DNA from: Candidatus Parcubacteria bacterium
Lineage (GTDB): Bacteria; Patescibacteriota; Minisyncoccia; Phycocordibacterales; Phycocordibacteraceae
Reading direction: 5' to 3'
DNA: 18,147 nt
Assembly: GCA_027459545.1 (NCBI GenBank)
Contig: DAIDID010000001.1
Coordinates: 1-18,147 of the forward strand
Shown: piece after piece, positions 1 to 17,396 of the stretch
How the letters are laid out: the number at the start of each line of letters is the position of its first letter
How positions within the stretch are numbered: position 1 is the stretch's first letter
Position numbers and translations under genes: made by a program
Notes under the pieces: generated by a model
Seen by the model: only the letters and a program-made list of their open reading frames with translations
Told to the model about the DNA's origin: nothing
The model's database searches: none

Positions 1-1163
1 TGCACATTACCTGCTTGGCTTGGATCAACAACGAGCGTAGCTAGTCGGTTGGTTAGGTCAATGCGCCATATTTTATCTGTAAAAGACACAGCTCCTTGAT
101 ACCAGTCATCAGGGAGATTGCCTGTCATTGAAGTTGGAATTGCACAGTAGAGAGCTGTGCTATCGCTAGTCCAAACGCATTTTTCCGCGAGCGTAGCGAG
201 CGGAAGCGGAATAACAGTTCCTCGACTGAGGTTAATCGTAGCCATATGAAATGTTTTTCCATCAGTATAACTAAAGAGAACTTCATTTCCCGAAGGGCTC
301 GGAAGAGCAGTAAGTCCTTTGTAGGGTCCAATTATTGGTGTAAATGCACCTCTTGAAATTGAAAAGGCGTACCCATCTAGCTCTGAAGACGCTTTGGTTA
401 CGGCAATAAGCCCCGCACCAGCTACATGAACCACTAGCGACGTAAGAGGTGAGGTAAAGAGCGTGTGCACATTTGTGCCATCAGCATTTGCTGCTGCGCC
501 TATTGAGCTTTCAGTACCACTCGTAAGTACAAAAACAGTAGTTGACCCTAAAACAGTGGCTTGGTCTAAATCCTGCTGAAGAAAATAGCCACCATTACCA
601 GTATAAGGAAGAGCGTAGGTATTTATGTGTGAAGTTCCATCAGTCGACTGTGTTAAAAATTGTACGAAAGCCATTGAGCCATCGGGAAGCCACGAAGCTT
701 CTTGAATTCCAGGAAGGGTTTTGTCAGACACACGACTTAATTTTCTAGATAGTGCAAGATAGGAGTATATATTTCCACTTTCTCTATCAATATACCTAAC
801 CTCAACATCACCAGGAGAGTAGGTTGTAACAGAAGTGCTTGTTGCAGAATTGAGACTAGAGGAAGTCGCTGATGTGCTAGAAACCGAGTATACGGGAGCT
901 ATATCAAGCTCAACCTCTCCAGCAGAAACAGGACTAGAGGTGATTTGAATTAAGTTTGGGGCAACTACTTTGCCGGCACTGGCTGCGCCAGTGCCGACCT
1001 CAACAGTATTTTGAGAAGCTACCGTTCCTGCTCCAGTATCTCCAAAATTATTTCCGTTACTTACAGTAAGTTTTGCCGAAGGTTTAAAAAGAAAATACAG
1101 ACCCACCACAAGAGCGAGTATCAACAAAACCATTCCAATAACAATCAATTGACTTCGTTTCAT
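1..1163 (-). CDS. Membrane-anchored beta-propeller-like surface protein (3' end off window)
   Basis: The frame is open from an ATG at 1163 to the left edge (387 codons, no stop), so the C-terminus is missing. Residues 1-6 are basic (MKRSQL), followed by one hydrophobic segment at about 7-26, which suggests a type II anchor with the rest outside the cell. A Ser/Thr/Ala-rich linker (about 35-110) leads into a beta-rich region with repeated blade-like phrases such as WLPDGSMAFVQF, SPSGNEVLFSYTDGK and CVWTSDSTALYCAIP, which resemble the PD40/TolB-type propeller signature. The start lies 3 bp after the stop of the pilin-like gene, so it is the most distal visible gene of the secretion cluster and probably co-transcribed. 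The propeller call rests on motif appearance only; the anchor and export are better supported. A function as adhesin or appendage-associated sensor is inference. Confidence 0.72.
   Translation of the reverse strand, partial: MKRSQLIVIGMVLLILALVVGLYFLFKPSAKLTVSNGNNFGDTGAGTVASQNTVEVGTGAASAGKVVAPNLIQITSSPVSAGEVELDIAPVYSVSSTSATSSSLNSATSTSVTTYSPGDVEVRYIDRESGNIYSYLALSRKLSRVSDKTLPGIQEASWLPDGSMAFVQFLTQSTDGTSHINTYALPYTGNGGYFLQQDLDQATVLGSTTVFVLTSGTESSIGAAANADGTNVHTLFTSPLTSLVVHVAGAGLIAVTKASSELDGYAFSISRGAFTPIIGPYKGLTALPSPSGNEVLFSYTDGKTFHMATINLSRGTVIPLPLATLAEKCVWTSDSTALYCAIPTSMTGNLPDDWYQGAVSFTDKIWRIDLTNRLATLVVDPSQAGNV
974..996. repeat. Perfect mini-palindrome in the beta-propeller-like gene
   Basis: Arms cggcactggc / gccagtgccg (10 bp) around loop tgc. 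It encodes GTGAASAG in the Ser/Ala linker after the membrane anchor. GC-rich compared with neighbours. Confidence 0.85.
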
Positions 1164-1166
1164 ATA

Positions 1167-2456
1167 TTATGGGCCAGTGCTTACGCTCGCAGAGCAGGTT
1201 TTACTTGGGCATGCTGCACAAGAAGAAGCAGTCGTGTTATCAAGAGCACAATACACAGTGCCGTTTTCACCAGTAGCAGTGCACATATGGCTTGGACAGT
1301 CACTACACTGATCAGCAACGGTGCCATCTAGAGTACAAGAAACAACAGTTGGGCTTGCTGAGGGATTGTATGTGCAGGTGCCACCCCCTTCAGGTTGACA
1401 GATATAGTCAAGACCATTTTGATTTTGGCAATTAGTATCAGTAGTGCAATCACCACCTGGTTGAACAGTTCCATCAGCAGTATTAGGTGTCGCAGCATCA
1501 GCGGAAGAAGCAGCCGGAGAGTCAGAAGAGGTGCTCAGGGCGGAAAAATCAGAACCAATATTTAAATTTAATATCCTTTTGTCGATAATGCTAAATACAA
1601 GCACTGGCGAAAGCACGAGCACAAGTCCAAGAATTGCCGTAGAAATAAGTTCGCGGGCTTGTTTTACTTCAGTTACGCTATCGCCGCCCATATATATGAT
1701 ACCTGCCCGCATTATCTGAATAACAGCAAGCACTGCAGCAAGACCAACGCAGTATTTATAAATGGCATTTAAAAATGTTCCTAAATCAGGTGCTGTGGTT
1801 AGATTTTTTAATACAGGGAGGTTGGTTAGTGCAACAAAACCACCATTTGCAGGTGCCGCTGAAGAAGGTGTTCCGGCAGCAGGATTTGTGACACAGATAC
1901 CGCTACTATTACAAGTATCTCCACTAGCCATGCAGGCTTGATCATTGCTTCCACACCACCCACCAGTAGCTACGCTTCCGCTTTTAGGAGTCGGATTACA
2001 AATTCCGTTATTGTCACACTCGAGCCCACTCGCACAAGTTAGTTCTGGGCCACCTGCATTTTTTGGTGCGCATGATCCACCTTTTGCAACCACAGAAGCT
2101 GTTTGAGCCGCATCCTTTGTTATTTGTTGAGACGTTACTGCATTCATTTGAAACGTAGAGGAGCCTTTTACCGGTATTTTTAATGCATTGTTCGCAGCCT
2201 GCTCAATAGTTTGGGCATTTGGTTGAGTTGTATTCCCTGGAGTAGATGCCTCACTAGATGCCTGTTGGAGCATACTTAAAAGCATATTTCTAGTATTGTT
2301 GTTTGGATTTGCAATATAATTTTTTGTTACCACCTGCAAAGCAGATAAGGTTCCAGCTGTTTGAGCAGAGGCAACGTTAATCCCAAGAGGACTTAATGTT
2401 ATCCCAAAGAGTAGTGCCACCAAAAATAGTTTAGTTTTAATCATATTACTAATCAT
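1167..2456 (-). CDS. VirB2/TrbC-like type IV secretion pilin with two Cys-rich domains
   Basis: This 429-residue protein starts with a signal peptide (about 1-31, ending VASAQ). Residues 228-255 and 268-291 form two hydrophobic helices separated by a short polar turn (GGDSVTEVKQAREL). This is the VirB2/TrbC (T4SS pilin) core arrangement, and the helix-turn-helix is the family-defining part. Unusually, the core is flanked by cysteine-rich modules: eight Cys between residues 129 and 188 and twelve between 337 and 421. The C-terminal one ends in two tandem copies of C-x9-C-x2-C-P-S-x2-C starting at residues 374 and 403. Ordinary VirB2 pilins are about 100-120 residues, so this one is about four times longer. 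The ATG overlaps the TGA of the preceding gene (ATGA at 2453-2456), implying translational coupling. No Shine-Dalgarno is visible. Pilin role is strong inference; the Cys-rich parts have no assigned function. Confidence 0.8.
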   Translation of the reverse strand: MISNMIKTKLFLVALLFGITLSPLGINVASAQTAGTLSALQVVTKNYIANPNNNTRNMLLSMLQQASSEASTPGNTTQPNAQTIEQAANNALKIPVKGSSTFQMNAVTSQQITKDAAQTASVVAKGGSCAPKNAGGPELTCASGLECDNNGICNPTPKSGSVATGGWCGSNDQACMASGDTCNSSGICVTNPAAGTPSSAAPANGGFVALTNLPVLKNLTTAPDLGTFLNAIYKYCVGLAAVLAVIQIMRAGIIYMGGDSVTEVKQARELISTAILGLVLVLSPVLVFSIIDKRILNLNIGSDFSALSTSSDSPAASSADAATPNTADGTVQPGGDCTTDTNCQNQNGLDYICQPEGGGTCTYNPSASPTVVSCTLDGTVADQCSDCPSHMCTATGENGTVYCALDNTTASSCAACPSKTCSASVSTGP

Positions 2457-3505
2457 AATCCAAACAGACCGGTAGAGTTACTGTTTCCGAATTGTACAGA
2501 AAGAGTGCTGTTTGCGGTTTCATTGCTTGAAGAATTGTTTGCAGAAAAGTTTAATTGTGCTGTACCAACTCCCGTACCCGTATCTCGCACAGTCAAAGAA
2601 TTTGTGGAGCCACTATCTGTGCCGTTCATAGTCCAGTTTAGAGCAGGCGTACTTGAAAAATAATAAGGCACACCTAAGAATGTGTCCTCAGAATCAGGCA
2701 TCGTATACGAAGAACCTAGAGCGTTGTCATAAATAGGTCCCAATAAAGGGTCTTCTTTATAAATACGAGTTATTGGGCTGATGGGCGTAATGGTTGTATT
2801 TCCTTCTGCCATTAAGCTCCCGTCTTGGCTGGTCACTGTGACTGATACATCAGCATCTCGATACATTTGTGGAGCAATGGCATCGAGCACAGAAGCCCCG
2901 ATTCCGGAGTCTGCAGTAAGTTCTTGATCCCCCAAGCTCCAAGTATATATAAGCGAAGAAGGATCAATTTGATTTCCTGAGGAATCACGTAAATCAGGAA
3001 TTGCTATAACTCGCACATGCCCTTCTGATGGCACAAGAGACGCCCCATCATAAAAAGGATGTGTGCTTGAAACAGGCTCGACCACGAGCGCAACGTTTTC
3101 TGGAATAATTAAGAGGGATTGACTATAGGACTGCCCACCAGAAACAGCAGTAACAACAATGTTATTTTTGCTACCTGGACCTCCGAGAGTTATTGCAATG
3201 CCCGCTCCCCCGCTACCACTATAGTATTGTTCACCATTAACTTTTACGCTTATCGTTGCACCAGAAATATCAAATGCAGAACTCGAAGGCGTGATGGTTA
3301 CTGTGGAATATGGAGTGGGATACTGCGGTGATTGATCTAGCGTAAGGGACTGGGTAGCTGCACCACTACCACTGCCAACTGCAGAATTTGTTTGTGCATG
3401 TGTGGGGAGGATTATAAGTGCGTATGAAAAAATCAAAATCACACTATTTATAATCACCAGCGTGAAAATAAAGCCAGAAGCTATCTCAGAAAATTTCTGC
3501 AACAT
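2453..3505 (-). CDS. Anchored Ig-like extracellular protein of the T4SS cluster
   Basis: This 350-residue protein has an N-terminal hydrophobic segment (about 10-36, followed by HAQ, compatible with a signal peptide or anchor). The remaining ~310 residues are beta-rich, Ser/Thr/Asn-rich and contain no cysteine or predicted helix bundle. Phrases such as STVTITPSSSAFDISGATISV and RVIAIPDLRDSSG with a TWSLG motif resemble Ig-like/PKD-type beta-sandwich repeats; two or three domains are plausible. It ends in an Asn/Ser-rich tail. It lies between a small membrane protein and the Cys-rich pilin, to which it is coupled by a 4-nt ATGA overlap. A -10-like TATACT sits 6 nt before the ATG. The product is most likely on the outer face of the cell as part of, or bound to, the secretion appendage. 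No enzymatic motif was recognised. Confidence 0.75.
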   Translation of the reverse strand: MLQKFSEIASGFIFTLVIINSVILIFSYALIILPTHAQTNSAVGSGSGAATQSLTLDQSPQYPTPYSTVTITPSSSAFDISGATISVKVNGEQYYSGSGGAGIAITLGGPGSKNNIVVTAVSGGQSYSQSLLIIPENVALVVEPVSSTHPFYDGASLVPSEGHVRVIAIPDLRDSSGNQIDPSSLIYTWSLGDQELTADSGIGASVLDAIAPQMYRDADVSVTVTSQDGSLMAEGNTTITPISPITRIYKEDPLLGPIYDNALGSSYTMPDSEDTFLGVPYYFSSTPALNWTMNGTDSGSTNSLTVRDTGTGVGTAQLNFSANNSSSNETANSTLSVQFGNSNSTGLFGL

Positions 3506-3511
3506 GCGTTT

Positions 3512-3517
3512 AGTATA
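3512..3517 (-). promoter_or_regulatory. -10 box (TATACT) 6 nt before ATG of the Ig-like gene
   Basis: On the minus strand TATACT ends 6 nt before the ATG at 3505, inside the 57-bp gap after the stop at 3563. The usual distance from -10 box to transcript start would put the first base at the A of the ATG, so the mRNA would be leaderless. No good -35 hexamer lies 16-18 nt upstream; the region there is A-rich. The support is the sequence match plus recurrence of the same geometry at other genes in this window. Confidence 0.5.
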
Positions 3518-3562
3518 GCGCGCGGCGGTGTTACTTTTTTACTATTTCAAAAATACTGGGTA

Positions 3563-4099
3563 TTATGCGGCCTGAGAAAGTCGAGCGTTGTCGTTTGCGA
3601 CTGACGCAAGTGATGCAGCCATTGCTTTCTCTCTCTGGGTACGAGCTCGCGCCTCGGCTTCAGCCGCTCGCGCCTCTCGTTCTTTTCGGTCCTTCTCTGC
3701 TTTTAGTTGCGCTTTATATTTTTTAACAGCTTCTTTGTACTCCCACTTATCAGCAAGTCGCGATCGGACGATGATAGTAATTACTTCGCCAGTCGTAAAA
3801 GGAAAATCATCAAGCAACGGCACAAAATCAATCGCTCCCAGCGCCATTGTAAGCAAGGCATTTACACTAGAGCTTTTTCCTTTGTAGGCTCCTGCTATGT
3901 AAAGACCGAGTGTAATGCTTATAAATTCAAGAAATGAAATAATCCACGATCCAATAAACCCAATAGGTGCACCAACAAAGGGAATAGCGTCTACAAAAAG
4001 GAGAAATATTTTTAAAGCATCAAAAACAACTGCAAGTCCTATAAATACTCCTGCGGGAAGATTTCCAACAGTGGTCTTTTTAACAGGAGCTGAGATCAT
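3563..4099 (-). CDS. Small polytopic membrane protein with charged coiled-coil tail
   Basis: This 178-residue protein has about three hydrophobic stretches between residues 14 and 112 (roughly 16-37, 41-72 and 78-95). They are followed by a highly charged helical tail (about 115-165) rich in Lys, Glu, Arg and Ala with EAR/ARA repeats, and then a short polar end. There is no signal peptide. The tail is expected in the cytoplasm and could bind the VirB4 ATPase encoded just upstream. It is not a family I can name; its position between VirB4 and the surface proteins argues for an inner-membrane component or scaffold of the secretion machine. The ATG at 4099 is chosen because it is the first in frame and lies 6 nt after a TAGAAT box. 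The DNA of the tail has a short direct repeat (gctcgcgcctc twice at 3645-3680), which reflects the EAR/ARA repetition. Confidence 0.75.
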   Translation of the reverse strand: MISAPVKKTTVGNLPAGVFIGLAVVFDALKIFLLFVDAIPFVGAPIGFIGSWIISFLEFISITLGLYIAGAYKGKSSSVNALLTMALGAIDFVPLLDDFPFTTGEVITIIVRSRLADKWEYKEAVKKYKAQLKAEKDRKEREARAAEAEARARTQREKAMAASLASVANDNARLSQAA

Positions 4100-4105
4100 T
4101 ATTTC

Positions 4106-4111
4106 ATTCTA
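4106..4111 (-). promoter_or_regulatory. -10 box (TAGAAT) 6 nt before ATG of the small membrane protein
   Basis: TAGAAT on the minus strand ends 6 nt before the ATG at 4099, within the 48-bp gap after virB4. The bases directly before it are GGTG, but not in exact extended -10 register. It has the same spacing as the boxes before the Ig-like, PrgI and helicase genes, hence a likely internal promoter giving a leaderless transcript. No clear -35. Confidence 0.42.
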
Positions 4112-4115
4112 CACC

Positions 4116-4139
4116 GAAGCGTGCCGAGGTCTCGGCTTC
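4116..4139. repeat. Quasi-palindrome in the virB4 downstream gap
   Basis: The core is gccgag-gt-ctcggc (4123-4136). The outer bases gaag (4116-4119) and cttc (4136-4139) also pair if a 4-nt bulge is allowed. No T-run follows on either strand, so it does not look like an intrinsic terminator. It may affect mRNA stability between virB4 and the next gene. Confidence 0.4.
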
Positions 4140-4147
4140 TGATTTTA

Positions 4148-5986
4148 CTATGCTGGTTGACTACCTTCACTCGCTTCGTGTCTTTGTTTTTCCTGTTTTA
4201 TTGCTAAAAGCTGAGAAGGATCCGATGTGATAATTTGATCCTCCGTATACGAGGCAACTATTTTTATAGCAACATGCTTAAGTCCAGCGAAGAAAAGTCC
4301 CTCACCAACACCAGACTCAAGAAGGAGATATTTTTCTTCATCAGTTAAATTAAACGTGTCTTTAAGTACATCTATGGTGGTCGGGGACTGCTTCAGAAGG
4401 AGCTGGATGGAGGAGTTTGTGAGAATTGGCTTTCCATAGGGAGAACGAAGGAAGTCTTCTACGTCTTGAGTAATAGTTGAAAGGCCCAAGTAATACTTTC
4501 GGCCACGCTTTGCAAGGCTATATAGAAACGAGGCAGTATCTTCTGACTTCATCATCCACCACGCTTCATCTATGATAAGTAGGCGTTTTTTGAGTTCATG
4601 TCGAACGGCATTCCATATAAAATGTGTCACGATATACATTGCAACGGGTTTGAGCTCGTCCTCCATATCGCGTACAGAAAAAACCACAAACTGCTTATTT
4701 ATGTCGATATTTGTTGGTTGATTTAAAAATCCTGCCCACGTTCCATGAGTAAATTTTGAGAGACGTTGCACAATAGACTCACTTCCCTCCATCCCCGAGA
4801 GCACACTTTCAAAATCACCAAGCAGAGGTGGTTCTGAACCAGTAAAGTCAGCATCGCCGGTAATGTCTTTAAGCGCATAAGTTTCAGAAATTGCACGATC
4901 AACTATTGCATCTTCTTCTGGTGTAAGACCACCCAGCATAATTCTGAACAAACCGACGAGATTAATGATATTTGAGCGAAGTATATCCGCAGGCTCCTCA
5001 TCTTCTTTAACAGGAGGTAGATCAAAGGGATTTATATGATTTTCAGAAGAAAGAGAGATATTGAACAGGCGACCTCCGGTCGCCTGCGCGAGGTATTCAT
5101 ACTCCCGTTCAGGATCGATTACAATTACATCAGTATCAAACATCAGAGAACGCAATATTTCGAGCTTCACTGCATACGACTTTCCGCTACCAGACTTAGC
5201 AAAAGTTACGGAGTTGTAGTTTTCAAGTGAAAAACGATCAAAAAGTATGAGTGAGGAATTATGGCGATTTATACCATACAGAATTCCTCTATCGCTCGTA
5301 AGATCAAACGAAACAAATGGAAATATTGAAGAAAGTGGCGAAGAAGTGAGTTTCGTATTTACGCTCAGTTCGTCATTTGCAAGAGGTAGAGTTGATCGAA
5401 ATCCTTGCTCTTGCTGAAAAAGAGCGGGCTTTGTGTAAATGAGTTTAGAATCAAGTATGCCACGCACATCACCTTCAATTTTATTAAGCTCCTCCATAGA
5501 AGAAGCATAAAGGGTGATGTAAAGACCAACTTCATACAAGTGCTCTTGTGCCTGCTGGAGCTGGTCGCGGAGGTTCTCAATATCTTGATATGCGGTATCT
5601 AAAAGCGGATCACGCACCAATCCCTTCTCTTCCCTTTCAGAGATTTGGCTTTGTACTTCTGCTACTTTTTTCTGAAAGTCTCGAAGAGCCTGTCCTGTAT
5701 TGATAGGGTGAATAAATATTCCTACGTCAAAGACTTTATCTAGATTTATAATCGGCTCAAACCAGCTATCTGCGAGAAATCGTGGATATGAAATAGTATA
5801 GAAAGAGCGAGAAAATTTTTCACCAATTTCGATCTCCTTTGATCCAATTTTCAAACCCGCAGGGGCAATAGTATCTGCGAGGTCGAGTGTTCCTTGTGCG
5901 TAGATGTCATTTGGGAGTACCGCTGCAATTTCAGGAGCAGCGCCCTTCTTTTTGTTATTTGAATTAAAAAAATCAAGTAGTGCCAT
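4148..5986 (-). CDS. virB4: VirB4/TraC-family T4SS ATPase
   Basis: This 612-residue protein carries the VirB4/TraC ATPase core. The Walker A is AKSGSGKS at 263-270, directly followed by the helix YAVKLEILRS, and the Walker B is RLLIIDEAWW at 468-477. There is an RGRKYYLG segment (494-501) and STITQDVEDF (503-512), matching the conserved C-terminal motifs of the family, and DPEREY at 291-296 is the usual post-beta2 motif. Residues 50-200 hold the N-terminal region with a long coiled coil (about 100-150). It is shorter than typical VirB4 (about 800 residues) because part of the N-terminal module is encoded separately just upstream (5990-6619, 3-bp gap). It is expected to form hexamers at the inner membrane and power pilus assembly or substrate transfer. 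No Shine-Dalgarno is seen, so translation is probably coupled. The palindrome at 5066-5086 encodes the conserved QATGGRL stretch. Confidence 0.95.
   Translation of the reverse strand: MALLDFFNSNNKKKGAAPEIAAVLPNDIYAQGTLDLADTIAPAGLKIGSKEIEIGEKFSRSFYTISYPRFLADSWFEPIINLDKVFDVGIFIHPINTGQALRDFQKKVAEVQSQISEREEKGLVRDPLLDTAYQDIENLRDQLQQAQEHLYEVGLYITLYASSMEELNKIEGDVRGILDSKLIYTKPALFQQEQGFRSTLPLANDELSVNTKLTSSPLSSIFPFVSFDLTSDRGILYGINRHNSSLILFDRFSLENYNSVTFAKSGSGKSYAVKLEILRSLMFDTDVIVIDPEREYEYLAQATGGRLFNISLSSENHINPFDLPPVKEDEEPADILRSNIINLVGLFRIMLGGLTPEEDAIVDRAISETYALKDITGDADFTGSEPPLLGDFESVLSGMEGSESIVQRLSKFTHGTWAGFLNQPTNIDINKQFVVFSVRDMEDELKPVAMYIVTHFIWNAVRHELKKRLLIIDEAWWMMKSEDTASFLYSLAKRGRKYYLGLSTITQDVEDFLRSPYGKPILTNSSIQLLLKQSPTTIDVLKDTFNLTDEEKYLLLESGVGEGLFFAGLKHVAIKIVASYTEDQIITSDPSQLLAIKQEKQRHEASEGSQPA
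5066..5086. repeat. Perfect mini-palindrome inside virB4
   Basis: Arms caggcgacc / ggtcgcctg (9 bp) around a 3-nt loop tcc. It lies over codons for the conserved QATGGRL region of the ATPase, so it arose by codon choice or local rewriting and not by insertion of foreign sequence. Confidence 0.8.
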
Positions 5987-5989
5987 GAG

Positions 5990-6619
5990 CTAGGTGTTAG
6001 TAAGGCGAATAGGGTTTTCCATGTCGCCTAAATTAAATGATCGATACAGAAGCTCTATTATTTCTTCAGTACCAAGTGGAATTGCTCGAAGTCCTGAAGA
6101 TGAAAGTCCAGCTGCGACTAAAGACATTCGTTGCTCAAGCTGTATGCGTTCCTTTTCAAAATCGTCTGTTTCCTCAGAGCCCGCTTCTTTTTTGTTGCCG
6201 AAACCAAATGTCTTTGCGACTTCAGCTCCCCCACTTTGCGCGTATGGCACAATTACATAAAACATCTTTGTCATAATATCCGCACCTTCAATGAAATTCT
6301 GAATAAACGCAATATATTCGCGGAGCTGAAGGCGCATGAGTTCGGTGCTTTGGATGTCCATTCGTTGTTGGAGTAGCTCGAGGTACGGACGAATGTCCAT
6401 CTTCCGCGAGTGCACGACAATTTGCACAGAAAAGTCGAGCGTATTTAAAAATGATTGGAAGCCCCCGATAATTCCTCTTTGCTCATCCTCAGATTTAAGT
6501 GAAAAATTAATCGAAGATACCATAAGTATTCCTCGGTAGCCGCCATCCTTAAGCAAAACAACGCCATTTCTGACTTCTTTTACGGGAACGAAGGATTGTG
6601 AGGCTTTTGATGCGGGCAT
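5990..6619 (-). CDS. TraC-like N-terminal-domain protein (separate VirB4 N-module)
   Basis: This 209-residue soluble protein resembles the N-terminal domain of TraC/VirB4 proteins: VRNGVVLLKDGGYRGILMV (17-35), then INFSLKSEDEQRGIIGGF and LNTLDFSVQIVVHSRKMD. This succession of a small beta-sheet and helices precedes the ATPase domain in full-length relatives. It has no Walker motifs and no membrane segment. The stop is 3 bp before the VirB4 ATG and the start 8 bp after the PrgI stop, in the order PrgI - TraC N-module - VirB4. The likely job is to dock the ATPase onto the PrgI/VirB6 membrane complex (inference). A Gly/Glu-rich flexible stretch sits at about 130-155. No Shine-Dalgarno is visible before the ATG at 6619. 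This is either an ancestral fission or a lineage-specific architecture, not a frameshift: the flanking codons give clean termini. Confidence 0.8.
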   Translation of the reverse strand: MPASKASQSFVPVKEVRNGVVLLKDGGYRGILMVSSINFSLKSEDEQRGIIGGFQSFLNTLDFSVQIVVHSRKMDIRPYLELLQQRMDIQSTELMRLQLREYIAFIQNFIEGADIMTKMFYVIVPYAQSGGAEVAKTFGFGNKKEAGSEETDDFEKERIQLEQRMSLVAAGLSSSGLRAIPLGTEEIIELLYRSFNLGDMENPIRLTNT

Positions 6620-6627
6620 AGGTGCGA

Positions 6628-7035
6628 TTATTGCTGGTTTTCAGCTGAAAGGTCTTTTATGTCGAGTGACCACGCGAGGTCTCTGAGTTTGCTTTGAGAA
6701 AGGCCAAGTTTTTCGCGTGCAACAGGAGGAGGAGCGACAGGAGCTGCTTTTTCTACAGGAGCGTCCTTTTTCCAAAGATATAGTCTTCCACCGATGTAGT
6801 AGTTAAAACCTGCTTCGAGCATTTCTATGAATGATTTGCTATTTACTTTGTAAAAAGCGAGCGCAAGTGCAAAAGCCGCAACGGGTATTGCAAGTATGAA
6901 TCCTATACCATGCAAGTAGAGTACAAGAATTACACAGAGCCCTGCTCCACCAGCAATAAAGATAAATTGTTTGAGCGTGAGAGGTCCGAAAATTTTATCT
7001 TCCACTTCAATGAACTGAGGTACTTGGTATTCCAT
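6628..7035 (-). CDS. PrgI-family (VirB3-like) membrane protein
   Basis: This 135-residue protein begins MEYQVPQFIEVEDKIFGPLT, the typical PrgI start (a short beta segment, then FGPLTLKQF leading into the membrane). Two hydrophobic helices follow at about 23-41 and 43-62, then an amphipathic stretch (FIEMLEAGFNYYIGGRLYLW) and a Pro/Ala-rich plus charged tail. PrgI proteins replace VirB3 in Gram-positive and CPR systems and sit next to the VirB4/TraC ATPase, as here. I chose the ATG at 7035 over the adjacent in-frame GTG at 7038, because ATG lies 7 nt after an extended -10 box. Expected location: inner membrane, contacting VirB6 and VirB4. Confidence 0.88.
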   Translation of the reverse strand: MEYQVPQFIEVEDKIFGPLTLKQFIFIAGGAGLCVILVLYLHGIGFILAIPVAAFALALAFYKVNSKSFIEMLEAGFNYYIGGRLYLWKKDAPVEKAAPVAPPPVAREKLGLSQSKLRDLAWSLDIKDLSAENQQ

Positions 7036-7042
7036 CACTACT

Positions 7043-7051: not shown

Positions 7052-7078
7052 GCTTCTTACGACCACCAAAGAAAAGTA

Positions 7079-10523: not shown

Positions 10524-10526
10524 ATG

Positions 10527-12092
10527 CTAGGTTGTGGATGGTGCACAGCTTGAACCCGTTTTGGCAATCTGCATCATCTGCGTATACAAAGAAGAGGGAG
10601 TATTTGCACCAGTATCGATGCTTTCGCTTTGAGCATAAGAGATGTCGCTCGCAGTAGGTAGAACGGCTAGTTCTGTCGTATACGCCGTAGAAACATTCGA
10701 AAGAGCTGTAGTTGGATCTGTTGAGCTGCTCGCAGTTGTGAGTTGCTGTTGTATACCCTGGAGAGAGGTTATTCCGCTACTTGCTTGCTGAAGCTCAGTT
10801 GCAGCTTGCTGAAGAACGGGTTGGACGGTGTTTGTAATTGTACTTTGTGCACTCGGAGAATTAGAACACGCACTAAGTGCAGTATTTGCGGCGAGTGCAG
10901 CGTTGTTTATTTTTGTCCAATTCGCTTGGAATTCTTGAAGAGAGGTAATTTGCTGTGAGATAGTTGAAGAAAAGCTCGCGGAAAGCTGTGCATTTACTGC
11001 GCTCGTACTTGTGTCAGTTTGATTAAAGTACGAAGCGGTGGTTGTGGTGGTAGCAGACGTTCCATTTCCTGGAGTAGTTCTAGTGCTAGGTTGAGAAATT
11101 CCAGCAAGACCTCCAGCAGTAAATACCTGATTTACTAATTGACTTAAAAGTGAACCGATTATTTCGTCAAAGGTGTGCGCATTTACTAGAGTATCAACTC
11201 CCGAACCAAGTGCTTTATCAAGAGAAGCTTTTATAACTGTCCCAGGAGTTTTTATAGGGCTAGATTGGCAGGTACTATTTCCAGAAAGAGACGTCAGTAT
11301 CGTTTTAATAGACCCTGTTGACTTACTTGAAGATGCTGTTTGACCCGTTGTTCCGCCCGTAGTGGAGGTATTGCAGGTACCCCGAGAAGCGAGAAATCCT
11401 TGTCCGTAATTAAGCTCCTGCTTTTGAACATTTTGAGCATTAGCAACAATAGAATTGAGTCCTTCAGATGCGAGCTCGGCAGCGCCGTAGGGGTTATTTG
11501 CGGGATTCGAAAAGGCAGAGGCTAGAGCCATAAAGCCTCCCTGACTAAAATTTCCTGAAAGAAACCCCCTATCGTTTGATGCAATTTGATTAAGCGTATA
11601 GGGATTTGAATTAAAAAACCCCATAGCGCCTGTAGATCTCAGGTAATTATTTCCGATAGCCGAAGCGATTACCGTCTGAAAGGGTGAGCTTATTGCGCTA
11701 TTACTAGAAAGCTGGGCGAGGAAATTGTTTGCAGCAGTGTCTCCAACTTGCTGCATAAGCACGTTTAAGTTTGTTACAAACCCTGGAGCACCGTTTGGAC
11801 CTCTATTTACAGAATTAATAGTGCTGCTCACTACTGATTGCAGGGTTTCCTTTGCAAGCATCCAAGCTATAGGATTTAGTAATGACATTTGTACCTGACT
11901 CAAGTTAGTTGAAATTGCAGTAGAGCCTACTCCAATAGCAGAAAGTGTATTTTCAATATAATTTAGTGGATCATGAACTACTAATTGAGCACGGGCTTTT
12001 TGGGGAAACACTACAGAAGATGTTAAAAGCAATATGCCAATAAAAAGCGAAATGATTTTAGATACGAAGTGTGATTTTGAGTCTTTTGCCAT
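10527..12092 (-). CDS. TrbJ/VirB5-like secreted T4SS protein
   Basis: From the ATG at 12092 this is 521 residues. A signal peptide spans 1-35 (basic start, FIGILLLTSSVVF core, cleavage-type ARA before QLVV). The mature N-terminus VVHDPLNYIENTLSA matches the TrbJ/VirB5 beginning, in which a D-P-x-N motif precedes a long helix. The rest is helical and Ser/Thr/Ala/Gln-rich with six Cys, among them pairs near GTCNTS and STCQSS, and a Thr/Ser-rich central linker (ATTTTTASYFNQTDT). VirB5/TrbJ proteins sit at the pilus tip or in the periplasm, where they bind pilin and mediate adhesion. At about 520 residues this is twice the usual length. An in-frame GTG at 12113 would overlap the preceding stop by 20 bp; the ATG, 1 bp after that stop, is preferred. 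No Shine-Dalgarno. Confidence 0.78.
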   Translation of the reverse strand: MAKDSKSHFVSKIISLFIGILLLTSSVVFPQKARAQLVVHDPLNYIENTLSAIGVGSTAISTNLSQVQMSLLNPIAWMLAKETLQSVVSSTINSVNRGPNGAPGFVTNLNVLMQQVGDTAANNFLAQLSSNSAISSPFQTVIASAIGNNYLRSTGAMGFFNSNPYTLNQIASNDRGFLSGNFSQGGFMALASAFSNPANNPYGAAELASEGLNSIVANAQNVQKQELNYGQGFLASRGTCNTSTTGGTTGQTASSSKSTGSIKTILTSLSGNSTCQSSPIKTPGTVIKASLDKALGSGVDTLVNAHTFDEIIGSLLSQLVNQVFTAGGLAGISQPSTRTTPGNGTSATTTTTASYFNQTDTSTSAVNAQLSASFSSTISQQITSLQEFQANWTKINNAALAANTALSACSNSPSAQSTITNTVQPVLQQAATELQQASSGITSLQGIQQQLTTASSSTDPTTALSNVSTAYTTELAVLPTASDISYAQSESIDTGANTPSSLYTQMMQIAKTGSSCAPSTT

Positions 12093-12093
12093 A

Positions 12094-13128
12094 CTAGTTT
12101 GTCTTGCTAACACCTGAGCTCGAGGAAGCTAGCTTATAGAAGTAGTAGCCTGGATCATTTTCTGAAATAGTTACACCTTCAGCGGAAAGAACTGCGCCCA
12201 TGTCTGAAAGACCTTTTGCAAGCGCGGCTGCGTCTATTTGGTATTGAGCAAGACCTAGATATGCACGAAGAGGATCGGTATTCATCACGCTCAAATCAGT
12301 AATGTCTTCTCCAAGTCGAGACGTGGCGTTAGCTATTTCAAGATGGGCATTTTGTGCTTCGGTAGGAACCTGAAGCTTCATGAGGGCAGGGCCCATCTCT
12401 GTATACGCTTCGGCTATTTCAGTAACATGATGGAGAGCACTAGAGTCATTTTTTTGAACCGCATCTGAAAAATAATCAATCTCACTTTCCGTTCCAGTGT
12501 CCGAAGGGCTTGTTTTAGCAAATACCGCTTCAGCGTCTGCGGCGTATTGCTTCATTGCGCTCGGTCCAGTACCGCTTACGGTTACTTCACTAAGTGTGTA
12601 TTTAGATTGGTGCTCTTGCTGCTGCGCAAATGTCTGCATGGCGTTTTGCGCAAGAGTCATCACTTCGCTATCAGAGGGAGTTGTGCCGTTTTGTACATCA
12701 GCCGCGCTTTGTTGAAGGTATTGTGTGAGAAGTGTTTGTGAAAATTGCTCAGTGAGAGACCCAGGAGCTGCCTGTATTCCTTCGGGTGAATTTTCAAGAG
12801 TTGAGTTTTCCGCAGTGCTTGTGGCGCTTTGAACAAGGAATTTTGGTTTTACAAGACCTTCCGCTATGGCCTGTGCATTTGTAATGGTCGGACTGAAAGA
12901 ATGGATGTTGTTTGGATCGAGCCCATAAAGCTCAGCTTCCCAGTCGGGAAGACCATCATGCTCACGCGAAGCAAGTGCTTGGAGAAGGGCTTGAGTGGAT
13001 GCAGCATTTACAACGCTTGGGTCAAGAAATGACAATTCCCCATTTGAAATTATGATTGAACCGCCAATAAGTACGCTCGCTATGACAAGCGCACCGATAA
13101 TGCCGGTTTTTCGAGAAATTGATGCCAT
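12094..13128 (-). CDS. N-anchored protein with calcium-loop-like motif, T4SS-associated
   Basis: From the ATG at 13128 this is 344 residues. MASISRKTG is followed by one hydrophobic segment (about 9-29), with the remainder extracytoplasmic. Residues 57-74 read HDGLPDWEAELYGLDPNN, which fits the D-x-D-G-LPDWxE...DPNN loop of thrombospondin-type-3/EF-hand-like calcium motifs; the usual first Asp is replaced. The rest (about 80-344) is helical with Gln/Ala/Ser-rich segments. I do not recognise a named family. The stop (12094) lies 1 bp before the TrbJ-like ATG, so the two are coupled and probably work together outside the membrane. The chosen ATG lies in the 3' arm of a perfect hairpin (13126-13151). 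A TTG at 13164 would add 12 residues and run through the hairpin, which is less likely. Confidence 0.75.
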   Translation of the reverse strand: MASISRKTGIIGALVIASVLIGGSIIISNGELSFLDPSVVNAASTQALLQALASREHDGLPDWEAELYGLDPNNIHSFSPTITNAQAIAEGLVKPKFLVQSATSTAENSTLENSPEGIQAAPGSLTEQFSQTLLTQYLQQSAADVQNGTTPSDSEVMTLAQNAMQTFAQQQEHQSKYTLSEVTVSGTGPSAMKQYAADAEAVFAKTSPSDTGTESEIDYFSDAVQKNDSSALHHVTEIAEAYTEMGPALMKLQVPTEAQNAHLEIANATSRLGEDITDLSVMNTDPLRAYLGLAQYQIDAAALAKGLSDMGAVLSAEGVTISENDPGYYFYKLASSSSGVSKTN

Positions 13129-13151
13129 GCTACTACAGAAATAGTAGCATG
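13126..13151 (-). repeat. Perfect hairpin spanning a start codon
   Basis: Arms catgctacta / tagtagcatg (10 bp) with a 6-nt loop. On the minus-strand mRNA the 3' arm contains the ATG of the anchored protein gene (13126-13128). There is no T-run after it, so it is not a standard terminator. It could mask the start codon until upstream translation melts it. Confidence 0.7.
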
Positions 13152-13171
13152 AAAGCGTATACAATTTTCAT
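13133..13171 (-). CDS. Possible 12-residue leader peptide before the T4SS genes
   Basis: An ATG at 13171, 6 bp after the rsmA stop, opens a short frame MKIVYAFMLLFL ending with TAG at 13133-13135. The stop lies inside the 5-prime side of the arm that carries the next ATG, so ribosomes finishing the peptide would be on the hairpin 13126-13151. No Shine-Dalgarno. This is a suggestion from geometry only; it could be chance. Confidence 0.25.
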   Translation of the reverse strand: MKIVYAFMLLFL

Positions 13172-13177
13172 AAATAG

Positions 13178-13957
13178 CTAGGTTCTGTGTATTGTTTTTG
13201 CAAGAATGAGCCATTGTGGAAGCGAAACATCTTCAGCTCGAATTGTTTGGGGAAGTGACGCCTTTTCAAATGCCTCAAGAACACTTTCGTGTGAAAAAAT
13301 TTCCTCAAGATTTTTTGCGAGCTGCTTTCTTTTGTGCGCAAATCCCGCATGTAAAACTTCAAAAAAGTGATATTCTGCAAGGTTTGACGGGAATTGCAAA
13401 GCAATTCCCGTAATTGAAAGAACGGCTGAATCAATACTTGGTGCGGGAAAGAAAGCACCTTTTGGCACAGTAAAGCAATACTTCGGAGTGCCAAATGCTT
13501 TAACTGAAAGCGAGAGCAGACTTTCTTTTTTACTACGAGCAATTCGTACAGCAACTTCTTTTTGAACTAAAAATGTAATTGATGTGGGCTTATGTGTAGT
13601 AGTAAGGAATGTCCGTATGAGTTCACCTGTAATGTAGTAAGGAATATTTGAAACGATCACATATTGCCCTTTTATTGATTCTGGATCAAAAGAGCGTATA
13701 TCACTTGAAATTAAAATGAATTTATTTTCCGAAATCTCTTTTGCAAATGTTTCTTCGAGTTTCGGTATAAGGTCGTGATCTGTCTCAACGGCGATCACTT
13801 TTTTCGCGCGCGCTAAAAGCGCGCGCGTTAGCATTCCTTTTCCGGGACCAATTTCTAGTACAACATCAGATGAAGTAACTTCCGCAGCCGCAACAATTCG
13901 TTCGGCTGTTTGCTTGTGCATTAGAAAATTTTGGCCGAGAGATTTCTTTACAGGCAT
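13178..13957 (-). CDS. rsmA: 16S rRNA (adenine1518/1519-N6)-dimethyltransferase RsmA (KsgA)
   Basis: This 259-residue protein is close to the family's usual length. It dimethylates two adjacent adenines in the 3' hairpin of 16S rRNA using S-adenosylmethionine, a late step of small-subunit maturation in the cytoplasm. Motifs in order: KKSLGQNFL at 4-12, SAM-binding EIGPGKG at 35-41, acidic E58, SSDIRSF with D86, the catalytic NIPYYIT at 104-110 (usual form NLPYYI), and FFPAPSIDS at 169-177. The ATG at 13957 is 2 bp after the helicase stop, so the two are one operon. Two perfect mini-palindromes (13387-13411 and 13805-13827) lie inside the gene; the protein motifs are not disturbed. Confidence 0.95.
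   Translation of the reverse strand: MPVKKSLGQNFLMHKQTAERIVAAAEVTSSDVVLEIGPGKGMLTRALLARAKKVIAVETDHDLIPKLEETFAKEISENKFILISSDIRSFDPESIKGQYVIVSNIPYYITGELIRTFLTTTHKPTSITFLVQKEVAVRIARSKKESLLSLSVKAFGTPKYCFTVPKGAFFPAPSIDSAVLSITGIALQFPSNLAEYHFFEVLHAGFAHKRKQLAKNLEEIFSHESVLEAFEKASLPQTIRAEDVSLPQWLILAKTIHRT
13387..13411. repeat. Perfect mini-palindrome inside rsmA (C-terminal part)
   Basis: Arms acgggaattgc / gcaattcccgt (11 bp) around loop aaa. It encodes the stretch TGIALQFP just after the FFPAPSIDSAV motif, a region of low conservation in the family. Confidence 0.85.
13805..13827. repeat. Perfect mini-palindrome inside rsmA (near SAM motif)
   Basis: Arms cgcgcgcgct / agcgcgcgcg (10 bp) around loop aaa. 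It encodes TRALLARAK directly after the SAM-binding loop. It is far more GC-rich than the surrounding gene. Confidence 0.85.
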
Positions 13958-13959
13958 AT

Positions 13960-15876
13960 TTACAGTTCAATTATATCCTCATACTCTCGCTCACTATTTT
14001 CTTGATAGTCAGTAAGGGAAGGATCAATATCTCGAAGAAATTGAGACGGCTCTGAAATAAAATCGCTTCCATAAATTCTCCGAATTCTAGCAAAGGTTAA
14101 GTATAAGCGCCTTTTCGCACGAGTTATTGCTACATAAAAAAGCCTACGCTCCTCCTCTTCGTCTCGCTTCTCATCGCTTTCTCGCGCTTCGTGCGGAAAG
14201 AGTCCTTCTTCAAGTCCTGTTACGAATACAGTATCAAACTCAAGGCCTTTTGCTGCATGCACGGTCATAAGTGTGACACCGCCTGAGTTTTGTTTTCGAT
14301 CAAGTTCGTCTTGGTCAGAAGCAAGAGCTGCATCGGTAAGGAAAAGCGAAATACCTTCTTTGCCAGGAAGAGAATCATATCGAGAAGCAAGTGTCGCTAG
14401 CTCTTTTATGTTTTCAAGTCGCTCTTGATCATCCTCACTACCTTTTTCAAGCAGTGCTTGTATGCCGCTTTTTTCAATGACCATTCGTACAAAAACCGAC
14501 GGAAGCTCACCTTCTGACGCTTGGGAAAGTGAATTAATTATTGCTTCAAATGTAGCAACTTTCGCTTTTTCGCTGGGTTTGAATGCCTCTTGCTTTCCTG
14601 CGATTATTTTCCCCAGAGTCACTTTTCCAATGCCTCGGGGTGGAGTTTGCACGGCGCGTGCACGGTCACTCTCCCGTGATGGCTCAAGTGCGAGGCGTAC
14701 CCATGCGAGCACATCTTTCACTTCCTTTCGATCAAAAAATCTCGTACCTAAAAGTTTGTAAGGTATTCCTTCTGCAAGAAACGCTTCTTCAAGCGCGCGT
14801 GATTGAAAATTTGTGCGGAAAAGCACAGCGATTTCTTGAGGAGCAGTTCCTGCGCGTATGCTGTTGCGCGCTTCGCGCGCAACATACCGTGCCTCTCTTT
14901 CTGCAGAGTCTTCCGGATGAATTACAATTCTCTCTCCTGCTGCGTTGTCAGTGATTGATCGTTTTTCTTTTCGATTTCTATTTAACGAAATTACTTGATT
15001 CGCAGCATCAACGATATTTTTTGTTGATCGATAGTTATGCTCAAGAATAATAGTTTTTGCATTCGGATAAGTTTTTTCAAACTCAAGAAGATTTTCTATT
15101 GTTGCGTTTCTCCATGAATATACACATTGATCAATATCCCCAACCACAAACACGTTTTGAGTTGGTGACAAAAGCAAGTCAATAAAGCGCGCCTGCAGTG
15201 CATTCGTATCCTGATATTCGTCCACGTGTATGTGTGAAAAACGATTCTGAACAATTCTTCGTACGTCGGCGTTAGTTTGGAGCAGTTTCACTGGAAGCAC
15301 AATGAGATCATCAAAATCCAGAGCCTTCTCCTTTTTTAAAGCTTCTTCATACCTTTTCCATACATCTGCAGCTATTCTATTTCGGAAACTCTCCCGACTG
15401 CTTTTTTGAGAAAATTCTTGCTGAGATATTCCTTCGCTTTTAGACTTACTTATACGAGAAAGCACAAAGCGGGGCGCAATCTCTTTAGGGTCAACGTCGA
15501 GCGCCTTTAGACCTTCTTTTATTACTCGTTCTGAATCATCTCTATCAAAAATGGTAAAAAAACGAGGGATGCCGAGTGGCTGTCCGTACTGTTGAAGTAT
15601 TTCTCTTCCAAGTCCATGAAAAGTCGCAACAAACGGAAGTGGCCCATTTGCTTCGAGTCTTGTGGCGAGCCGCTCTTTCATCTCACGAGCGGCTTTATTG
15701 GTAAAAGTAACTGCCAGAATTGATTCTGGAGCGACGCCTTGTCGTATAAGATGATAAATACGCGTTGTGAGAACTCGCGTTTTACCAGAGCCAGCACCAG
15801 CGAGTACAGAAATCGGTCCTTCTGTCGCAAGTACGGCTTCTATTTGGCGATCATTTAAACCCTCAAGGTACTGCAT
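13960..15876 (-). CDS. uvrD: UvrD/PcrA-type superfamily 1 DNA helicase
   Basis: From the ATG at 15876 this is 638 residues: an ATP-driven 3'-5' DNA helicase of repair and replication. Visible motifs: Q-motif LNDRQIEAV, Walker A AGAGSGKT (26-33), Ia VTFTNKAAREMKERL, motif II VDEYQDTN (218-225), motif III VVGDIDQCVYSWRNA (the usual D-D-D-Q-S-I-Y-x-W-R is changed at three positions but keeps Gln, Tyr and Trp-Arg), motif IV LEHNYRS, motif V TLMTVHAAKGLEFDTVF with GLEEGLFP, and motif VI EERRLFYVAITRAKRRLYL. The 2B domain is present. The protein is about 80 residues shorter than E. coli UvrD because the C-terminal Tudor-like extension is missing. A GTG at 15885 is in frame but lies inside the -10 region; the ATG 7 nt after TATAGT is preferred. 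It is the first gene of the minus-strand block. Confidence 0.94.
   Translation of the reverse strand: MQYLEGLNDRQIEAVLATEGPISVLAGAGSGKTRVLTTRIYHLIRQGVAPESILAVTFTNKAAREMKERLATRLEANGPLPFVATFHGLGREILQQYGQPLGIPRFFTIFDRDDSERVIKEGLKALDVDPKEIAPRFVLSRISKSKSEGISQQEFSQKSSRESFRNRIAADVWKRYEEALKKEKALDFDDLIVLPVKLLQTNADVRRIVQNRFSHIHVDEYQDTNALQARFIDLLLSPTQNVFVVGDIDQCVYSWRNATIENLLEFEKTYPNAKTIILEHNYRSTKNIVDAANQVISLNRNRKEKRSITDNAAGERIVIHPEDSAEREARYVAREARNSIRAGTAPQEIAVLFRTNFQSRALEEAFLAEGIPYKLLGTRFFDRKEVKDVLAWVRLALEPSRESDRARAVQTPPRGIGKVTLGKIIAGKQEAFKPSEKAKVATFEAIINSLSQASEGELPSVFVRMVIEKSGIQALLEKGSEDDQERLENIKELATLASRYDSLPGKEGISLFLTDAALASDQDELDRKQNSGGVTLMTVHAAKGLEFDTVFVTGLEEGLFPHEARESDEKRDEEEERRLFYVAITRAKRRLYLTFARIRRIYGSDFISEPSQFLRDIDPSLTDYQENSEREYEDIIEL
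14862..14884. repeat. Perfect mini-palindrome inside the helicase gene
   Basis: Arms tgttgcgcgc / gcgcgcaaca (10 bp) around loop ttc. It encodes VAREARNS in the 2A region, between motif IV and the FRTNFQSRALE motif. Confidence 0.85.
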
Positions 15877-15883
15877 TCTTCTC

Positions 15884-15892
15884 ACTATAGCA
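15884..15892 (-). promoter_or_regulatory. Extended -10 (TGCTATAGT) 7 nt before the helicase ATG
   Basis: On the minus strand TGC-TATAGT fits the TGn-TATAAT extended -10 form and ends 7 nt before the ATG at 15876. No -35 match is found at 16-18 nt. This would make a leaderless transcript for helicase, rsmA and perhaps the whole minus-strand block. Confidence 0.58.
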
Positions 15893-16008
15893 GAGTGATG
15901 CTGTCTACGCTTTATATCCGAAAATTCTAATAAATACCTAGAGTGTAAACCTTGTCAGTGTATAAAAATGGGGTGAAAAATGTTTTCAACAGGTGTGTTG
16001 TAATACCG

Positions 16009-16036
16009 TTGACCGCTTTTGTAAGGAGGCTATACT
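16009..16036 (+). promoter_or_regulatory. Sigma70-type promoter for the LysM-M23 gene
   Basis: TTGACC (16009-16014) and TATACT (16031-16036) are separated by 16 nt, the best full -35/-10 pair in the window. Transcription should start near 16043, about 215 nt before the ATG at 16260. An in-frame TTG lies exactly 7 nt after the -10 box (16044), the same geometry as the leaderless starts on the other strand. Confidence 0.7.
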
Positions 16037-16043
16037 GGCTAAG

Positions 16044-16112
16044 TTGCTCGATACTGCTGACCTCAAGAAATGGCTTATATATGCCGTTTTTGTATATATA
16101 CTGAATCTCTGA
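16044..16112 (+). CDS. Possible leaderless 22-residue ORF upstream of the M23 gene
   Basis: TTG at 16044 opens LDTADLKKWLIYAVFVYIL and ends with TGA at 16110-16112. It is in the same frame as the downstream M23 gene and separated from it only by that stop. It may be a regulatory upstream ORF, part of an interrupted N-terminus, or chance. Evidence is limited to position relative to the promoter and a hydrophobic segment. Confidence 0.2.
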   Translation: MLDTADLKKWLIYAVFVYILNL

Positions 16113-16259
16113 TATCCCCTAATTACAGCTATTTTACCTTACAAAAAACCATCCCTTGCCTCTTTACAAAAAGCTAATGGCAAGTATGCATACAGCTCCC
16201 GAAGTGTCTTAGGAGTAATTCTTTGCGCGACTGCATCAGCGGCGTTACTTTTTGCAGGA

Positions 16260-17396
16260 ATGCTGTTTTCAGAACCACGAAGCGCAAGCGCTTCGTGGCC
16301 GTTTACCAGCATAAACGCTGCTGGTACAAACTTCCCTCTTTTGCACGATCCAAGCATTCAGCTTTTGCAGGCACCTGAGAGCACTATCGTGGGAGATACT
16401 ATTGATGCAACTTCTCTCACTACTTCAGACGGCACAGCACTACTTCCAATCGTAAATCCAAATGCAGTCATTTCTTCAACAACAGACACATCATCCAGTA
16501 GCGGAGATACAGTAACTACACCTTCAAATGGCGCTATTTCGGAATATACCGTAAAGGCAGGAGACAATCTTTCAAGTATCGCTCAAAGCTTCGGAGTTAG
16601 TGTCAACACAATTCTTTGGGCAAATAACATCACTGATCCAAGCACAATAAAAGAAGGAACTACCTTGGTTATTTTGCCAGTTTCAGGCATAGAGCATACA
16701 GTCCGCCAAGGAGAAACTCTTTCATCAATTGCAGAAAAATATGGAGGAAATGCAAGCGACATCGCGCAATTCAATGGTATTAGTTCAGACAACGCCCTTG
16801 TAGCTGGGTCCACCATAATTATTCCTGGAGGCGAGCTTGGATCAAGTGGATCCTCAAATACTTCTCATGCTAGTAAAGCTGAAACAACTAAAAAAACAGA
16901 TAGCTCTACGCCTTCAGTGGTGCATACCACAAGTAGTGCGGGCAATCCTGAGTGTGATAATACAAGCGGAAATCCATGCCACGGAATATACGACAAAGCA
17001 CTTCGCGGGTTCTTTGCAAACCCTATTCCAGGAGGAGCTCTTGTGTCACAAGGTCTTCATGGCTTTGACGCCGTAGATCTTGCAGCATCAGAAGGTACGC
17101 CAATTAGAGCAGCAGCGGCTGGCACAGTCATACTCTCTCGAATGGGTGGTTGGAATGGTGGATATGGTAGCTATGTAATTCTCGACAATGGATCTGGAGT
17201 TGAAACTCTCTATGCTCACATGGTAGAAACAAAAGCAATAGTCGGAGATAGTGTATCCGCTGGAGAGATTATCGGATATGTGGGTAGGACGGGAGATGCA
17301 ACTGGAGATCATCTTCACTTTGAAGTGCGAGGAGCACAAAATCCGTTCGCGTTTTGTGCAGAAGGAGTAAATAGCAACACCTGCTTCAAGTCCTGA
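16260..17396 (+). CDS. LysM-LysM-M23 peptidoglycan endopeptidase
   Basis: The minimal protein from ATG 16260 has 378 residues: a Ser/Thr-rich linker (about 40-92), LysM 1 (SEYTVKAGDNLSSIAQSFGV..., about 94-139), LysM 2 (EHTVRQGETLSSIAEKYGG..., about 145-189), a Ser/Thr/Lys linker, then an M23/LytM domain (about 250-365). Metal-site candidates are H267 (LHGFDAVDLA, with D273), H320 (LYAHM) and the HLH pair H351/H353 (GDHLHFEVR). The domain should cut peptide cross-links in peptidoglycan while LysM modules hold it to glycan. Four Cys (232, 240, 366, 375) could form disulfides outside. The ATG start leaves no signal peptide, but the same frame upstream (16200-16259) encodes RSVLGVILCATASAALLFAG, a clear membrane segment, so the true N-terminus is probably further upstream. 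A palindrome at 16275-16298 encodes PRSASASW just after the anchor. Confidence 0.9.
   Translation: MLFSEPRSASASWPFTSINAAGTNFPLLHDPSIQLLQAPESTIVGDTIDATSLTTSDGTALLPIVNPNAVISSTTDTSSSSGDTVTTPSNGAISEYTVKAGDNLSSIAQSFGVSVNTILWANNITDPSTIKEGTTLVILPVSGIEHTVRQGETLSSIAEKYGGNASDIAQFNGISSDNALVAGSTIIIPGGELGSSGSSNTSHASKAETTKKTDSSTPSVVHTTSSAGNPECDNTSGNPCHGIYDKALRGFFANPIPGGALVSQGLHGFDAVDLAASEGTPIRAAAAGTVILSRMGGWNGGYGSYVILDNGSGVETLYAHMVETKAIVGDSVSAGEIIGYVGRTGDATGDHLHFEVRGAQNPFAFCAEGVNSNTCFKS
16275..16298. repeat. Perfect mini-palindrome at the 5' end of the M23 gene
   Basis: Arms ccacgaagcg / cgcttcgtgg (10 bp) around caag, in which c and g can pair as well. It encodes PRSASASW between the membrane segment and the exported part of the protein, where sequence is poorly constrained. 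Confidence 0.85.

Follow-up and report, generated by a model that had tools for sequence, protein, structure and literature searches.

Perfect short hairpins with three-nucleotide loops abound in the genes of a Kaiserbacteria-like Patescibacterium

An excess of inverted repeats in bacterial genes is known and, in the accessible part of the source, is ascribed to sequence-directed mutagenesis or to selection on mRNA (PMC4060949). Quasipalindrome template switching is treated by Ripley (1982) and by Ladoukakis and Eyre-Walker (2008), as cited in the available sections of PMC7202029 and PMC4060949. For the coding palindromes of nematomorph mitochondria the authors suggest conversion, and the accessible portion of that paper already argues from binary identity to such a mechanism (PMC6649704). 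According to the available extract of a survey of 118,019 genomes, the commonest spacer in bacteria is 4 (PMC13155455), whereas it is 3 in the hairpins reported here. Finally, the accessible text of PMC4686876 presents mini-hairpin DNAs with a GNA or GNNA loop on two G-C pairs as extraordinarily stable.

The stretch of DNA analysed here (the window, 18,147 nucleotides) is contig 1 of an assembly of 480 kb in 71 contigs (79% complete), and the host genome is that of a Kaiserbacteria-like Patescibacterium. Among the products encoded in the window are a KsgA-type methyltransferase, a UvrD-type helicase and a LysM-M23 peptidase, alongside a type IV secretion cluster of the Patescibacteria type (pilin, PrgI, VirB4-like ATPase); no Rfam family was found in the window at gathering score. 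The six perfect inverted repeats with 9-11 bp arms that the initial annotation had placed inside genes were all confirmed, exact in their coordinates, and its loop sizes hold as well (3 nt in five hairpins, 2 nt in the sixth). Hairpin 974-996 (10-bp stem; loop TGC on the plus strand, GCA on the coding strand; ORF 3-1163, minus strand), hairpin 5066-5086 (9-bp stem, 3-nt loop, GGA on the coding strand), which codes for QATGGRL in the VirB4-like ATPase ORF 4148-5986 (minus strand), and hairpin 14862-14884 (10-bp stem, 3-nt loop, GAA on the coding strand; UvrD-type helicase gene 13960-15885, minus strand) are of the C-GNA-G class. The KsgA-type gene 13178-13957 (minus strand) carries hairpins 13387-13411 (11-bp stem, in a variable stretch) and 13805-13827 (10-bp stem, coding for TRALLARA), each with a 3-nt coding-strand loop TTT; both are absent from the two relatives compared below, G106 and G100, and a near-identical 8-bp form of the latter occurs in L169. 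Hairpin 16275-16298 (11-bp stem, loop AA) makes up codons 6-13 of the LysM-M23 peptidase ORF 16260-17396 (plus strand), so a later true start of this ORF is possible; one relative aligns in this region in each of two comparisons. Hairpins 14862-14884 and 16275-16298 lie outside the coverage of the G106/G100 comparison. A seventh hairpin, absent from the earlier list, was found at 13126-13151 (10-bp stem, 6-nt loop) at the start of ORF 12094-13164 (minus strand). Against 40 synonymous-codon shuffles of the 15 ORFs of the window, hairpins with loop 3 and arms of at least 9 bp numbered 5 (shuffle mean 0.05, maximum 1) and those with loops 2-6 numbered 7 (mean 0.45, maximum 2), so that the excess over chance is real and had been understated. 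At 189-201 the window also contains the motif GAGCGTAGCGAGC, present in 1 copy in 256 kb, which has GC-GTA-GC, another GNA mini-hairpin tip, at its core.

The excess extends beyond the window. In 20 of the 71 contigs (256 of 480 kb), 58 hairpins with loop 3 and arms of at least 9 bp were counted, compared with 1.0 expected from order-2 Markov sequence, and 46 of these 58 lie wholly within mechanically called ORFs (a whole-contig search in which inner pairs were treated differently). Within 267 such ORFs (236 kb) there were 48 coding hairpins of this kind vs 1.5 in synonymous shuffles, a genome-scale count far above the codon-shuffled level at which the claim of over-representation would have failed; 174 kb of E. 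coli coding sequence, used as a control, contained none. Coding hairpins thus far exceed chance, and there are dozens of them in this genome. They occur in unrelated genes. Intrinsic terminators were rejected as their source, given the 46 of 58 in ORFs and the lack of a general T tract in the flanks; some of the intergenic hairpins may be terminators. In G019 (L069, L090-L109), 48 of 96 loop-3 hairpins with arms of 9-14 bp are intergenic, many with T-rich flanks, and short-loop stems of 10-12 bp seem to serve as terminators in this genome.

The density differs between genomes. Per 100 kb, coding hairpins number 20.3 in the host genome, 13.5 in G010, 10.4 in G106, 10.1 in G019, 9.4 in other members of the genus, 5.3 in G006, 4.7 in other families of the order, 2.2 in G100 and 0 in E. 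coli; the values for G106 and G100 are not random samples because their loci were picked by similarity to hairpin-bearing contigs of the host, and a few of the hairpins counted as coding, mainly in G019, may be terminators in spurious ORFs. Stretches consisting mostly of N were excluded (six in the sampled sequences; 5 of 21 for G006). The loci of the best 80 VirB4 relatives in GTDB r220 (73-88% identity, with names such as Kaiserbacteria, Paceibacterota and Parcubacteria) have 2.7 coding hairpins per 100 kb (34 vs 8.8 expected).

Stem length, loop sequence and perfection each follow a rule. Loop-3 arms of 8, 9, 10, 11, 12, 13, 14 and at least 15 bp (coding and intergenic together) number 12, 7, 21, 9, 3, 7, 5 and 6, with a peak at exactly 10; the peak of G010 is at 9. 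Stems on GNA/TNC loops that are closed by C-G and have G-C as their second pair number 167, 39, 9, 6, 0, 2, 7, 3, 16, 4, 0, 1 and 4 for the lengths 2 to at least 14, that is, a chance-like tail up to 5 bp is followed by a separate hump at 8-11 bp (7-10 bp in G010). Arm length is correlated with GC at -0.36, AT-rich stems tending to be longer, and the constant quantity may therefore be stability. In the coding sequence of the host, stems of at least 9 bp stand on 24 of 237 GNA/TNC tips vs 8 of 948 other loops (p = 1e-11), and the effect is similarly significant in G106, G010, G006 and other contigs of the genus (p = 0.02 in other families); it is not significant in G019 (p = 0.15). GNNA/TNNC tetraloop tips show the same trend (5 of 193 with stems vs 6 of 1001 others, p = 0.02; in G010, 7 of 385 vs 1 of 1605). 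None of the 1631 GNA/TNC tips in the r220 VirB4 loci bears a long stem, compared with 5 of 284 where contigs of the genus were taken at random, which may reflect a depletion in secretion loci or in these genomes. Loop energies could not distinguish DNA from RNA (63 of 64 triloops share one energy in the RNA set, and all are equal in the DNA set loaded).

Among 10 pairs around a 3-nt loop in coding sequence of the host, perfect stems number 43 vs 0.9 expected, stems with one interior mismatch 19 vs 8.6, and stems with two mismatches 77 vs 71.6; the corresponding figures for G010 are 21 vs 0.1, 12 vs 8.4 and 81 vs 70.4. Perfection is thus near-binary, the one- and two-mismatch classes being almost empty above chance, and decay by point mutation alone should be expected to fill exactly these classes.

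The closest relatives by VirB4 among 92 genomes of the genus (the host included) are G106 and G100, with 90% protein identity and a base identity to the host in the VirB4 region of about 74% and 72%, respectively. Among the 75 coding hairpins of the host with loops 2-4, the 44 that lie on seven contigs were compared with these relatives, and 37 were covered by at least one. Arms with at least 90% of their bases kept were found at 7 of 32 hairpins in G106, compared with 0.66 in random in-frame flank windows (7 was never reached in 5000 draws), and at 2 of 36 in G100, compared with 0.65 (p = 0.14). At least 80% of pairs were kept in 8 of 32 hairpins in G106 and 3 of 36 in G100; counting those below this value as absent, 24 of 32 are missing in G106 and 33 of 36 in G100. 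Arms were conserved around changed loops in the VirB4 hairpin 5066-5086 (GGA to GGG in G106), L003 11477 and L006 749; among 109 sequences of relatives (some genomes being represented twice), the VirB4 hairpin is complete only in G106. With silent divergence at saturation, the retention of 7 of 32 hairpins calls for selection or for conversion at a very high frequency.

The initial annotation had raised the question whether both arms change together in relatives. One clear covarying case vs G106 was found, L009 9632, in which paired bases at the base of the stem differ between the host and G106 (where the stem is 17 bp); over all 32 sites compared with G106, however, only 11 of the 55 pairs changed on both sides still pair, which is about chance. 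In the 8 hairpins retained in G106, both of the 2 doubly changed pairs are re-paired, thin evidence of covariation because this set was chosen for pairing. An identical 22-nt palindrome with a 2-nt loop occurs in G106 (L263 116-137) and G100 (L262 439-460); it is not among the listed hairpins of the host and represents another conserved hairpin that is absent or changed there.

Single hairpins bear signs of how they arose. At 974-996 the 5' arm and loop are identical in G100 and the 3' arm has diverged by a cluster of bases, a difference that can be aligned as a compensated +1/-1 indel with substitutions and would be explained by copying of the 5' arm. At L006 2493 the 3' arm codes for a stretch, FTLIEL, common to the host and G100, and the 5' arm is a 22-base inverted copy of the 3' arm, the 8 codons of which are missing in G100 (the relative covering this site). 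L013 168, in a gene with the GQDPYHG motif of uracil-DNA glycosylases, has 8 extra codons missing in both relatives compared, and L016 885 is a similar case of inverted copy or indel. Compensated indels or inverted-copy insertions are confined to these single cases (974, L006 2493, L013 168 and L016 885). As a general effect, asymmetry between the arms was a trend against flank windows (p = 0.09 and 0.07, values preferred to the p = 0.04 and 0.018 of a simple shuffle), and in hairpins absent from both relatives host-specific amino-acid and base changes were not significantly raised (p = 0.14 and 0.09).

We consider it somewhat probable that most of the hairpins arose by DNA template switching (quasipalindrome correction or sequence-directed mutagenesis), a process that would be unusually active in this lineage. 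Where a strand with a tip resembling GC-GNA-GC is single at the replication fork, it would snap into a very stable DNA mini-hairpin, whereupon the polymerase, as the footprint in single genes suggests, might copy the nascent strand's own arm for several further bases and return, so that a perfect stem about 10 bp long is left behind; at sites with no earlier near-palindrome, an inverted copy would be inserted in frame. Later mismatches could be converted away by the same route, and old hairpins would freeze because the partner arm codes for protein and the spreading of changes would usually be harmful. As the best reading, template switching accounts for why the stems are perfect, why the loops follow a rule, why inverted copies are inserted and why hairpin density varies from species to species. 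The perfecting of imperfect hairpins by this process, as the initial annotation had suggested, thus fits best with the near-binary perfection, the GNA loops, the rewriting at 974 and the inverted copies, although the asymmetry of the arms remained a trend. The stem length of about 10 bp is unexplained by a simple copy model, and the upkeep of some hairpins may be due either to conversion under coding constraint or to selection on structure. Other points against template switching are that the r220 VirB4 loci, which belong to the same group and, as far as tested, share its lack of nucleases, show no GNA effect, that G019 has no clear one either, and that host-specific change inside the hairpins was not significantly raised.

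Nucleases of the SbcD, XseA and ExoI type act on hairpins or hold down quasipalindrome mutation. In a survey of the 92 genomes of the genus, several of which are incomplete assemblies (the host included), SbcD (TIGR00619) scored over the cut-off in none, XseA (TIGR00237) in 3, among them G100, and the ExoI C-terminal domain in none, its positive control ringing only in E. coli. The lack of SbcD and near-lack of XseA may permit template switching; it is at most permissive because it is genus-wide, and it cannot by itself explain many hairpins in some species and few in others, the absence of repair genes not tracking hairpin density. A search of the text of PMC7202029 for these nucleases turned up no mention.

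An alternative that we regard as possible, if on the unlikely side, is that selection maintains the hairpins as functional structures, a GNA-capped stem of about 10 bp and of any sequence being read in single-stranded DNA or in mRNA (with roles in stability, pausing or protein binding); their raw material may still come from template switching. The best reasons for it are the sharp length (the discrete hump at 8-11 bp), the conservation of 7 of 32 hairpins in G106 with changing loops, and a lean of GNA loops to the coding strand, on which stems stand on 17 of 109 GNA tips vs 7 of 128 TNC tips (p = 0.016; 19:7 when set against all C-G-closed loops, p = 0.05). A mild tendency of hairpins to lie early in the gene, with 21 of 46 in its first 30% (p = 0.02), points in the same direction. 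The strand bias is, however, absent in G010, and G-T pairs are not tolerated on the coding strand as expected for an mRNA structure: among single interior mismatches there was 1 G-T (1.9 expected) and 6 A-C (1.1 expected) in the host, and 2 G-T (1.5 expected) and 0 A-C (1.2 expected) in G010, all of them small numbers. Most hairpins are evidently not needed, since 24 of 32 are absent in G106 and 33 of 36 in G100; they lie in genes unrelated to each other, and by eye they share no common flank or stem word. Selection for mRNA hairpins, the second process envisaged in the initial annotation, is therefore weakened by the lack of a G-T excess and keeps in its favour the conservation beyond the flanks and the coding-strand lean.

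More doubtful, in our estimation, is the proposal of a discrete, sequence-independent element, defined purely by its structure (a GNA mini-hairpin on top of a perfect stem of about 10 bp), situated inside genes as well as elsewhere, conserved in part from one species to another, and produced or recognised by machinery that gauges about one turn of the helix in hairpin DNA. In this genome GNA-capped hairpins of about 10 bp occur about once per 7 kb, or once per 4.4 kb when every 3-nt loop is counted.

The insertion of a mobile palindromic element, similar to REP or to the Rickettsia palindromic elements, is very improbable. Gaps inside the hairpin at 3 of 31 three-way sites, and the extra in-frame codons at L013 168 and L006 2493, would favour it, but at the other 28 sites the hairpin replaces homologous codons without a gap, so that the earlier argument against insertion holds for most sites. 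The stems of the loop-3 list are also unrelated by eye, as previously noted, except for one identical pair in a single contig (L019 7082 and 7553); this lack of a common sequence largely refutes a mobile element and led us to reject a dispersed repeat family of REP type. An assembly or library artefact, for which the fragmentation of the assembly (71 contigs, 79% complete) might speak, or a side effect of codon usage or base composition, is scarcely credible and both were discarded, since the same hairpins, some with changed loops, are found in a separate genome and synonymous shuffles that keep the protein and the codon set fail to yield them.

One further observation concerns a tRNA-like gene on contig 14 of the host (L015 2359-2642), which is interrupted by about 208 bp; the two segments adjoin in 76-nt stretches of G106 and G100, to which they are 100% identical, and the counterpart in G100 is a tRNA-Thr (GGT). 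ARAGORN makes no call in the host, and no Rfam family was found there at gathering score. The interrupting sequence looks like an intron, with a 15-bp palindrome of its own (2478-2509).

Should template switching be the correct reading, this lineage would be a natural record of the process, in which nucleation follows a clear rule (the GNA mini-hairpin), one length is preferred, and the origin, perfection and survival of inverted repeats in genes would be directly testable; it would also be a warning that stems in coding sequence may be perfect and conserved without any RNA function. Among the matches listed, judged by titles and the beginnings of abstracts, we found no paper on inverted repeats or palindromes in Patescibacteria or Parcubacteria (subscription journals and preprints being outside the coverage), none in the broader literature on such palindromes that named these bacteria, and none that linked GNA mini-hairpins to genome-wide palindromes.

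Compared with the known systems, the hairpins share with sequence-directed mutagenesis, as presented in the accessible part of PMC4060949, an excess of perfect, close inverted repeats in bacterial coding sequence that is ascribed to template switching; the excess reported there is small, with arms of 6-9 bp, whereas in the present genome arm length peaks at 10 bp and the excess is about 30-fold and depends on the identity of the loop. In the creation and perfection of stems in one step, coding DNA included, the present case resembles, as far as the available sections of these papers extend, the template switching by which RNA hairpins are created and maintained (PMC8794818) and by which repeat arms become uniform in yeast genes (PMC8604942); those systems differ in that the genes concerned are those of rRNA and other RNAs, and those of yeast. 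None of the three conserved hairpins compared here in which the loop had changed showed the spacer inversion that the accessible text reports for yeast. The d(GCGNAGC) mini-hairpins, with a GNA loop over at least two G-C pairs, have the same tip as the hairpins described above and are known, in the available extract of PMC4686876, as parts of oligonucleotides or aptamers. The palindromes of nematomorph mitochondria, according to the accessible portion of PMC6649704, likewise have perfect arms within genes, no excess of imperfect ones, and gain and loss between species; perfection, location in genes, binary identity and gain and loss were all found here, and the differences are those of length and organism, the nematomorph palindromes being mitochondrial and up to 284 bp long, those of the present genome bacterial, about 10 bp long and subject to a loop rule.
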